The notes under the pieces: model-generated
Seen by the model: the letters and a program-made list of their open reading frames with translations, nothing else
Databases searched by the model: none
What the model was told of the DNA's origin: nothing
Position numbers and translations under genes: made by a program
Assembly (NCBI GenBank): GCA_905479295.1
Contig: CAJQLY010000022.1
Coordinates: forward strand, 1-59,047
Direction of reading: 5' to 3'
From: an uncultured Gammaproteobacteria bacterium
Lineage (GTDB): Bacteria; Pseudomonadota; Gammaproteobacteria; UBA4575
DNA length: 59,047 bases
Shown: positions 26,046 to 29,682 of the stretch, one piece after another
Layout: the number at the start of each line of letters is the position of its first letter
Numbering within the stretch: position 1 is the stretch's first letter

Positions 26046-26780
26046 ATGGATATCGCGAACTACCAGCCAGCAGCAGATTGCCTACAAGACCGCATCATTA
26101 TGATCACCGGCGCTACTCGCGGCATAGGTAAAGCTCTCGCCATCGATGCCGCCAAACTAGGTGCAACAGTCTTATTGATCGCAAAAGACCTCAAACGCTT
26201 AGAACACACTTACGATGAGATAGAAGCACTAGGCAAGGCTCAACCTGCCATGCTCAACATCGACCTTGAAAGCGCTGGCGCCGACGACTACCAAACCGTC
26301 GCCAACTCGGTACACGAAGAATATGGCCGTATCGATGGCCTAGTGCATAATGCTGCAAGGGTTGGTGGGCTAACCCCACTACAGCAAACCGATGTCGCAC
26401 TCTGGTCTAAACTAATCACACTACACCTGCATGCCCCGTTTCTACTCACCCGCGCCTGCCTACCACTATTACAAAAGAGTGAAGACCCAAGCATCGTCTT
26501 CAGTATCGATGAAATCAGCAAGGCCTATTGGGGAGCTTATGGTGTGAGCAAGGCCGGACAAATAAGCCTAATGAACATCCTCGCCGAAGAACTCGATGGT
26601 GACCAACAAATCAGGGTCAATGGCATTCACCCTGGAAAAGTACGCACCCACCTGCGCACCCACAACTACCCAGGCCTCAACCCTAACGAATTTCCAGCAG
26701 CAGAAGACGTCACCAACCCCTACCTATATTTCTTAAGCCAACAAAGCAAAACGATAACTGGACAGTTATTTCGCATTTAG
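26046..26780 (+). CDS. yciK: YciK-type SDR family oxidoreductase
   Basis: IMITGATRGIGKALAIDAAKLGATV; VHNAARVGGLTPLQQTD; YGVSKAG. Confidence 0.88.
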   Translation: MDIANYQPAADCLQDRIIMITGATRGIGKALAIDAAKLGATVLLIAKDLKRLEHTYDEIEALGKAQPAMLNIDLESAGADDYQTVANSVHEEYGRIDGLVHNAARVGGLTPLQQTDVALWSKLITLHLHAPFLLTRACLPLLQKSEDPSIVFSIDEISKAYWGAYGVSKAGQISLMNILAEELDGDQQIRVNGIHPGKVRTHLRTHNYPGLNPNEFPAAEDVTNPYLYFLSQQSKTITGQLFRI

Positions 26781-26960: not shown

Positions 26961-27896
26961 ATGCAAGCACTGACCGACCTCAAAGCGATACTCCATTCCA
27001 AGCGCGCTAATATCTATTACTTGGAAAAGTGCCGTGTTATGCAAAAAGATGGCCGCATGCTTTACCTCACAGAAGCAAAAGACGAAAACCACTATTGGAA
27101 CATCCCAATAGCTAACACCACCTGTCTCTTACTTGGCGCAGGCACCTCCATCACCCAAGCCACCATGCGCATGCTGGCATCTGCAGGTGTACTCGTAGGT
27201 TTTTCAGGTGGTGGTGGCACACCACTATTAATGGCCACTGAAATCGAATGGATGACACCACAGAGTGAATATCGACCAACCGAATATGTTCAGGCTTGGA
27301 TGTCCTTTTGGTTTGATCAAGACAAACGCCTACAGGTCGCTAAGCGCTTTCAACAACAGCGCATTGAATACATTCAAAAAGTATGGGGCAAAGATAAAGA
27401 CCTACATGCTGAAGGCTTTCAGGCTGAGGAAGCCTTACTCACACAATTCATCCATAAAATCGAGCATGCCACCACTGTTAATAAACTCCTCACCGATGAG
27501 ATGGCGCTCACCAAAACCTTATATAGAATCGCTGCAACTACCACCAAAACCAACAAATTCAGCCGTAACCGTGAAGCCAATGACGATGCCAACGCCTTTT
27601 TAAATCATGGTAACTACCTTGCCTATGGCTTGGCTGCTACCACACTTTGGGTTCTAGGCATCCCCCATGGTTTCGCAGCCATGCATGGCAAAACACGGCG
27701 CGGCGCCTTAGTGTTTGATATTGCAGACTTAATAAAGGATACCCTCATCCTGCCATGGGCATTTATCTGCGCTAAAGAAGGTGCAACAGAACAAGAGTTT
27801 CGCCAACAATGCCTACAGAACTTCACCAAACACAAAGCCTTAGATTTTATGTTTGATAGTGTTAAACAAATCTGCCTTGAGGCCAAGCAGCCATGA
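26961..27896 (+). CDS. cas1f: Type I-F CRISPR-associated endonuclease Cas1
   Basis: LKAILHSKRANIYYLEKCRVMQKDGRMLYLTEAKDENHYWNIPIANTTCLLLGAGTSITQATMRMLASAGVLVGFSGGGGTPL...EIEWMTPQSEYRPTEYVQ...HGKTRRGALVFDIADLIKD is characteristic of Cas1f. Confidence 0.96.
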   Translation: MQALTDLKAILHSKRANIYYLEKCRVMQKDGRMLYLTEAKDENHYWNIPIANTTCLLLGAGTSITQATMRMLASAGVLVGFSGGGGTPLLMATEIEWMTPQSEYRPTEYVQAWMSFWFDQDKRLQVAKRFQQQRIEYIQKVWGKDKDLHAEGFQAEEALLTQFIHKIEHATTVNKLLTDEMALTKTLYRIAATTTKTNKFSRNREANDDANAFLNHGNYLAYGLAATTLWVLGIPHGFAAMHGKTRRGALVFDIADLIKDTLILPWAFICAKEGATEQEFRQQCLQNFTKHKALDFMFDSVKQICLEAKQP

Positions 27897-28270
27897 TGGT
27901 CACCTTTGTTTCACAATGCGAGCACAAGGCCCTAAATAGAACCCGCCGCATATTAGATGCTTTTGCTAATCGCATTGGTACAAACACATGGCAAACCGTT
28001 ATTACTGAAGAGGGCTTGCAGTCCGTTAAAAAGTTATTAAGAAAGACCGCCACTAAAAATACAGCAGTTTCTTGTCATTGGCTTAGAAGCCGCAGTCGCA
28101 GCGAATTTATTTGGGTAGTGGGTAGTAAAAGCAAATTCAATGAACAAGGCATAGTGCCAGTAAATTATACCGATCAAATTAATGCATTAAAAATGGATGA
28201 ATTAAACGTGAATATAGAAAAATATTATGCGAATACAAAACGCCAACCATCCACAACACGTCATCCTTAG
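27893..28270 (+). pseudogene. cas2-3: Truncated type I-F Cas2-3 (Cas2 domain only; HD nuclease and helicase missing)
   Basis: VTFVSQCEHKALNRTRRILDAFANRIGTNTWQTVITEEGLQSVKKLLRKTATKNTAVSCHWLRSRSRSEFIWVVGSKSKFNEQGIVPVNYT matches the N-terminus of Cas2-3 fusions, then diverges and stops at 125 aa; overlaps the cas1 end by 4 nt. Confidence 0.88.
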
Positions 28271-28874
28271 GATCATAAATACTTAAATCAGCTGCTGTAT
28301 GGGCAACATCATGAGCCATCAGTAATAATTTACGATCACCCAAATCAAGTTGAAGTGTGTCGCTCACCAGTACATCAGGAAATATAATTTCAGTCGCAGC
28401 TTGCACTGAATGCTTAGAAGCTTGCAGACGGTCGAGGAAAATATCCCCTACTAATCCCAATGCTTGAGGTAGATTCTGGGGCCCAACAAAATGCGTACTC
28501 TCTTGTTGAAAGGCCTTATTGCCTAACATATGGTCGGGGTGCACATGGGTATTAATGACATAGCAGATTGGTGTCGCTGTTAGTGAGCGAATAGCCTGTA
28601 ATAAGCGCATACCTTCAGTATAGCTGCCGCCCGTATCAACCACTGCAACGCATTCAGTACCAATAATAAAGCCGATATTAGCAATATCTTCAGACTCGAA
28701 AATCATACCGTGATGACCCGGCCGCACATAACTGCTAGCAGCGACTTGACTAAGTCCATGGCTATTTTTTGTATTTTGCTCACTACTCTGTAAGGCTGTC
28801 TCAGCATGCGCTTGAATAAGCAAAATACCCGCTGTTAGGAGCAACGGAAAAGATAATGAAAATGGATTAGACAT
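28179..28874 (-). pseudogene. MBL-fold metallo-hydrolase with signal peptide, 3'-truncated
   Basis: INTHVHPDHMLGNKAF (HxHxDH), MAHDVAHTAADLSIYDPKDDVLW; the expected C-terminal half after 'DVLW' is replaced by low-similarity tail sequence overlapping the cas2-3 fragment. Confidence 0.8.
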
Positions 28875-29067: not shown

Positions 29068-29682
29068 TTAATATTGTCTAACATCAGAATTGATACCGAT
29101 GTAACAATTGCTTCTTAAACAGCAACTCTCACAACGCGGCTTAGTCTTACACCACTGCTTACCAAGCTCGATAATCAGGGCATGATAATGCGCATAGGTT
29201 TTCACATCTGCTGGGATGGCGTTTTCAAACTGAGCCTGTAGCTCATCATATGAATCCTTCTCATTTATCAATCCTAAACGAGAAAAAATACGGCGTGTAT
29301 AGGCATCTATAATAAAAACTGGATGATAAAAAGCATATAAAACAATATCGTCTGCTGTTTCAGGGCCCACACCATTCACTGCTAATAAGCCGGCACGCAG
29401 ATCGGCCATCGACCATGTTGCTAAGACCTCCGCTCCACCCTGCTGAAGATACCAAGCACAGAGAGACCGTAATCTTTTTGCTTTTATATTGTAGTAACCA
29501 GAGGGACGGATGACTTGCGCCAGCAGATCAATATCGCTAGCCATAATGGCTTGCGCATCTAATAGATGATGTTGTTTTAGCTGGAGGATAGCCTTTTCAA
29601 CATTGGTCCAAGCTGTATTTTGGGTTAATACTGCCCCAACCATAATCTCAAACGGATCATCAGCTGGCCACCAAGCATCCAA
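29068..29682 (-). CDS. HhH-GPD / endonuclease III-related DNA glycosylase with Fe-S cysteine cluster; true start probably further upstream
   Basis: VGAVLTQNTAWTNVEKAI, LLAVNGVGPETADDIVLYAF, FIIDAYTRRIFSRLG, CKTKPRCESCCLRSNC; in-frame extension ANKFQTVFSILDQQLAL precedes the annotated Met. Confidence 0.82.
   Translation of the reverse strand: MDAWWPADDPFEIMVGAVLTQNTAWTNVEKAILQLKQHHLLDAQAIMASDIDLLAQVIRPSGYYNIKAKRLRSLCAWYLQQGGAEVLATWSMADLRAGLLAVNGVGPETADDIVLYAFYHPVFIIDAYTRRIFSRLGLINEKDSYDELQAQFENAIPADVKTYAHYHALIIELGKQWCKTKPRCESCCLRSNCYIGINSDVRQY

Follow-up and report, generated by a model that had tools for sequence, protein, structure and literature searches.

Type I-F2 (I-Fv) CRISPR-Cas loci, such as those of Methyloprofundus sp. 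Kmv24 (L120) and a Bathymodiolus methanotrophic symbiont (L105), carry cas1-cas3fv-cas7fv-cas5fv, and stand-alone adaptation modules have been reported in many genomes (PMC6452270). Here we analysed a stretch of 59,047 nucleotides (the window) that makes up all of contig C22 in G000, a metagenome-assembled genome from a small-genome lineage (60 contigs totalling 1.15 Mb; completeness 77%, contamination 5%), and compared it with 80 Cas1f loci retrieved from public genomes; G denotes the genomes compared and L the fetched loci, G001 being a sister species in the same genus and G009 (OX638335) a member of the same family. The window shares with the L120 and L105 loci Cas1f, a 4-nt gene overlap and the Cas2 domain with its linker (87%, residues 1-120), but it is without the HD nuclease, the helicase, cas7fv, cas5fv, cas6f and the array. 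Like the stand-alone modules (PMC6452270), it has cas1 plus a Cas2 part and no effector; unlike them, it has as its Cas2 part a truncated Cas2-3 that ends at an apparent deletion scar, which makes it a remnant and not a module that is being maintained. We conclude that the locus is very probably what remained of a type I-F2 locus after one illegitimate deletion had taken away its effector half.

Cas1f, the cas2-3 stub and their parent

An intact-looking cas1f of 311 aa, overlapped by 4 nt by an ORF of 125 aa, had been described in the original prediction, and coordinates and frames proved correct (Table 1); profile searches of the translations confirmed its Cas1f (TIGR03637) and its Cas2 domain of Cas3f (PF21384). 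Cas1 scored 479 bits against TIGR03637 (cas1_YPEST, model positions 1-306 of 307) and 578 bits against the PADLOC model Cas1fv, showing the membership in the I-F Cas1 group expected of type I-F2 (I-Fv). It retains the catalytic-type residues E, H, D and D and deviates from 81 homologues at 2 of 161 near-invariant columns (M33 and T68), while the Cas2 domain of the stub deviates at 1 of 44, both inside the range of other homologues. Neither shows an excess of damage, which points to a recent loss or to a constraint that persists; since the conserved residues of both are kept, the loss may be recent. Between G000 and G001, cas1 shows 95% amino acid identity over 59 residues, with 15 synonymous and 4 nonsynonymous changes and a dN/dS of 0.05, near the 0.02-0.04 of the SDR gene (computed piecewise around a run of N), a value that spans all the time since the species split and says little about the period after the deletion. 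A casposon was rejected, as this Cas1 falls within the CRISPR Cas1f group (82% identical to a Cas1 from a CRISPR locus) and not on the casposase branch, and no polymerase gene was found between the slot borders among the ORFs of the window.

Residues 1-119 of the stub, about the first tenth of cas2-3, span the Cas2 domain in full and, after the linker, reach ~15 residues into the Cas3 part; only the last six residues (STTRHP) are foreign. The stub scored 133 bits against PF21384 (Cas3_I-F_Cas2, positions 1-78 of 79), and AlphaFold2 with 30 relatives gave a pLDDT of 51 and a pTM of 0.42. As the linker of P. aeruginosa Cas2/3 occupies residues 95-104 (PMC12259127), the cut spared Cas2 and linker; of the fusion to a Cas3fv nuclease-helicase that characterises type I-F2, residues 1-119 are all that is left.

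PADLOC scored the stub higher as Cas3fv (210 bits, residues 1-120) than as Cas2-3f (146 bits). Among the 80 Cas1f loci, the Cas2-3 proteins fall into two classes, of ~1,100 aa and ~970-990 aa; the stub match typically ends at residue 93-104 in the longer class and often extends to residue 118-119 in the shorter, whose genes adjoin cas7fv and cas5fv, and usually cas6f too, as in subtype I-F2/I-Fv. Stub residues 95-119, which contain the Cas3fv-specific linker motif YANTKxQP, are identical to the Cas3fv of L101, L105, L118 and L120 at 19-21 of 25 positions, so that Cas3fv-specific sequence continues past the Cas2 domain as expected of an I-F2 remnant, and the L120 Cas3fv matched nothing in G000 except the stub (87% amino acid identity over residues 1-120). 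These alignments suggest that the parent was most likely of subtype I-F2 (I-Fv), not canonical I-F1. As no class other than the ~970-990-aa Cas3fv proteins matches residues 95-119, cas7fv-cas5fv-cas6f, and not csy1-4, would be the effectors that were lost. The homology to the Cas2-3 N-terminus that had been predicted therefore stands, but it continues to residue 119 against Cas3fv instead of ending at 'NEQGIVPVNYT' (residue 93); likewise, the rest of Cas3, the effectors and the array are not seen at the locus, as predicted, but what is missing is most likely an I-F2 set with a Cas3fv of ~970-990 aa, not the expected csy1-4 with a Cas2-3 of 1,000+ aa.

Table 1. Features of the truncated locus and its borders in the window.
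Feature	Position	Strand	Basis
SDR-family oxidoreductase gene (YciK-like), left border of variable slot	26046..26780	+	conserved neighbour
cas1 (Cas1f), full length, 311 aa	26961..27896	+	best-scoring PADLOC model Cas1fv
Stub ORF, 125 aa	27893..28270	+	4-nt overlap with cas1
5' remnant of cas2-3 (cas3fv), residues 1-119	27893..28250	+	PF21384, Cas3fv identity
Putative deletion junction CCAT	28247..28250	.	cas3fv residue 119 joined to metallohydrolase residue 209
Foreign stub tail S-T-T-R-H-P-stop	28251..28270	+	antisense metallohydrolase DNA
3'-truncated metallo-beta-lactamase-fold hydrolase gene	28248..28874	-	TIGR04559 (NCBIfam)
Endonuclease III-like DNA glycosylase (nth family), right border of slot	29068..29682	-	homology

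The junction and the clipped metallohydrolase gene

Up to position 28250, the stub DNA is 75-81% identical to four cas3fv genes of relatives, with 75-83% over the last 60 nt, and the identity falls to 17-23% in the 30 nt that follow. The convergent metallohydrolase gene matches TIGR04559 (quinoprotein relay system zinc metallohydrolase 2) at model positions 4-181 of 283 and retains ~209 native residues of ~310-340, with ~100 C-terminal residues gone; its best relatives, which have open frames of ~307-345 aa, match up to residue 208-209, corresponding to position 28248, and its ORF stops at 28179, inside antisense cas3 DNA. Each of the two convergent truncated ORFs therefore terminates in the antisense strand of the other, and the truncated genes meet within ~4 bases (28247-28250), so that homology breaks off abruptly to either side of a single junction, as expected of an I-F2 remnant. 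Since the cas3fv side ends at 28250 and the metallohydrolase side at 28248, one deletion explains both broken genes. The cas3fv of L105 reads CAACCAT and then diverges from the stub DNA, and a short microhomology, with up to 4 nt shared by both parents, is possible at the junction.

Decay of cas3 by frameshift or stop codon was rejected, as no Cas3-like remainder lies downstream in any frame. We also set aside a mobile-element insertion in cas3: what follows the junction is a fragment of a gene that runs on without a break into the conserved right flank, and element ends were not seen.

The chromosomal slot, the missing genes and related loci

The SDR gene forms the left border also in G001, G002, contig C41 of G000, G004, G009 and G012, and to the right the window continues with nth, rluB, scpB and scpA, with homology to G001:C50 beginning at 29113. 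The distance from SDR to rluB is 0.9-2.2 kb in G004, G009 and G012, where the contents differ (small ORFs or an IS3-like transposase, the latter identified by eye). The SDR gene of G001 is followed by cas1, 179 nt into which the contig ends, an arrangement that suggests a locus older than the divergence of the two species. Contig C41 (L065), a contaminant in G000 that is 98.8% identical to G001, has an alpha/beta hydrolase after SDR and no cas gene, a presence/absence difference within the sister species. The slot of G002 carries a PQQ-dependent alcohol dehydrogenase ABC-transporter cluster after SDR, and the metallohydrolase of the window, which by name belongs to the quinoprotein field, may be the last survivor of such a cluster. 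Left of nth in G001, the ORFs of G001:C50:1-1890 (L064) look phage Mu-like by eye, and the G001 slot may hold a prophage piece; two of these ORFs, when tested, had no Pfam match.

No ORFs for the I-F2 effectors cas7fv, cas5fv and cas6f were found between cas1 and nth. Neither a further cas3 or cas2-3 continuation nor cas7f was found in the 77%-complete G000, and cas7fv gave no match there in a search of four genomes with no positive control among them. The I-F repeat patterns each returned one chance match with 2 mismatches and no array in G000, an assembly 77% complete, and the second pattern returned 239 matches in the positive control G009. No cas3 or cas7 match was obtained in G001 or G002, and an intact parental locus was not found in the genus, as the G001 contig ends in cas1 and the slot of G002 differs. 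Because the assembly is incomplete and holds at least one contaminant contig, absences elsewhere in G000 are not proof. Neither of the two things that the original prediction had named as fatal to it, an in-frame continuation of cas2-3 and an adjoining csy operon, came to light.

A Methylococcales symbiont of the sponge Iophon (L078, QPIL01000114.1) resembles the window in having a full Cas1f (82% identity) and a Cas2-containing Cas2-3 stub (148 aa); unlike that of the window, its stub continues into I-F1-like Cas3 sequence, and downstream of it lies a full-length Cas12a gene (1321 aa, 2058 bits). Between stub and Cas12a lie a duplicated ParE-type toxin-antitoxin pair and a second cas2-3 fragment of 49 aa (L078:6001-12558). 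This may possibly be an I-F adaptation module beside a type V-A effector, and we found no description of an I-F cas1 next to Cas12a in the open-access literature. The I-F1 locus of G009 likewise has a Cas1 77% identical to that of the window and a cas1 adjoining cas2-3, but it is complete, of the csy1-4 type, with ~239 repeats and at a different chromosomal site; it occupies G009:C1:1464227-1486451 (L058) in a 2.16-Mb genome, and between its cas1 and cas3 one repeat-like match stands alone at 1486429. L157:6001-11289 (JAFLJQ010000194.1) holds an I-F cas1 without cas2-3, then a PDC-S05 protein and a type I-E-like Cas3 (645 bits), which suggests another effector exchange. The I-F2 locus L133 (DAOUSN010000065.1) is reordered to a cas3fv fragment, cas5fv, cas6f and then cas1, and its contig has CRISPR-like repeats close to both ends. 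I-F1 and I-F2 labels are strongly intermixed on the Cas1 tree, with 19 changes for I-F2, at least nine of them forced by well-supported branches. As the labels mix despite a conserved Cas2 domain, the I-F1 and I-F2 effector bodies appear, from these comparisons, to have been swapped near the Cas2-Cas3 linker behind that domain.

Proposed history and competing readings

The analysis shows directly what Cas1 and the Cas2 domain are, that the junction is sharp, that two genes are truncated there, where the slot lies, and that the G000 assembly gave no other cas3, cas7 or repeat matches; that the deletion was a single event, that the remnant has no function, and how the parental genes were ordered past cas3fv are inferred. 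The parental locus would have read SDR - cas1 - cas3fv (~985 aa) - cas7fv - cas5fv - cas6f - CRISPR array, followed by the convergent metallohydrolase and nth, possibly with further quinoprotein-relay genes between array and metallohydrolase. The deletion would have begun after cas3fv codon 119, just beyond the Cas2 domain and linker, and ended inside the convergent metallohydrolase gene, in its 3' portion, with everything between removed, leaving as products at most Cas1 and a free Cas2 domain. With the array, HD nuclease, helicase and Cascade all absent, the locus cannot give immunity. On the best reading the remnant is recent and dead, and it most likely decays neutrally; a residual integrase activity of Cas1 with the Cas2 domain is possible but unsupported. 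Between the alternatives of the original prediction, an adaptation remnant 'mid-decay or repurposed', decay is favoured, in the form of one sharp junction that truncated cas2-3 and an unrelated gene together.

An assembly or binning chimera, in which a contig end carrying cas1-cas3fv was joined to an unrelated metallohydrolase contig, would suit a genome with 5% contamination and at least one sister-species contig, the more so as the G001 contig likewise breaks within cas1. Nevertheless, the two parents share at most ~4 nt at the junction, insufficient for a join by a k-mer assembler, and the genes on either side (SDR on the left, rluB-scpB-scpA on the right) lie close together in G004, G009 and G012, with which the contig is collinear; for both reasons we consider such a join exceedingly unlikely. 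An I-F1 (csy1-4) parent, or an intermediate between I-F1 and I-F2, would agree with the nearest complete locus in the family, the I-F1 locus of G009, and with Cas1 trees on which the two classes are unseparated, but the stub aligns with Cas3fv at 19-21 of 25 positions in residues 95-119, beyond the ~93-104 at which I-F1 Cas3 typically stops matching. We judge this reading very doubtful, the linker sequence of the stub being the ground on which an I-F1 parent was rejected.

The pair might instead be a minimal working adaptation module, in which Cas1 and a lone Cas2 form an integrase that inserts spacers in trans into an array located elsewhere or serves as a docking point for new effectors. Such a module would account for the entire Cas2 domain and linker being intact (linker 95-104 in P. 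aeruginosa, PMC12259127), for the E, H, D and D and near-invariant columns retained in Cas1 and for the retained 4-nt overlap; effectors are known to be replaced in place while the adaptation module stays the same (PMC6452270), and the mixed I-F1 and I-F2 labels on the Cas1 tree are as expected with effector exchange. However, neither an I-F repeat nor an effector was found in the 77%-complete G000 assembly, the cut site is accounted for by a random deletion that broke an unrelated gene too, and a recent deletion accounts for conservation without function, which leaves the working module a slim chance, one owed to the quarter of the genome that the assembly lacks. It is very unlikely that Cas1 and a naturally freed Cas2 domain form a working I-F integrase that would serve as a landing module for repeated attachment of effectors (I-F1, I-F2 and, as in L078, Cas12a), with new effectors attaching just downstream of the Cas2 domain.

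With what looks like one deletion in a probable I-F2 parent, the locus is a case of ordinary gene loss with an unusually clean scar. Remnants of this type are already known, and the value of the present one lies mainly in its clean junction, which offers a base-resolved case of the death of a CRISPR-Cas locus, by one deletion that clips a neighbour as well, at a slot whose occupancy by the locus varies among close relatives, from present through altered to absent. The remnant itself is probably of no consequence for immunity, and the comparison suggests that, in its Cas1f relatives, the bodies of I-F1 and I-F2 Cas2-3 have been exchanged behind a conserved Cas2 domain.
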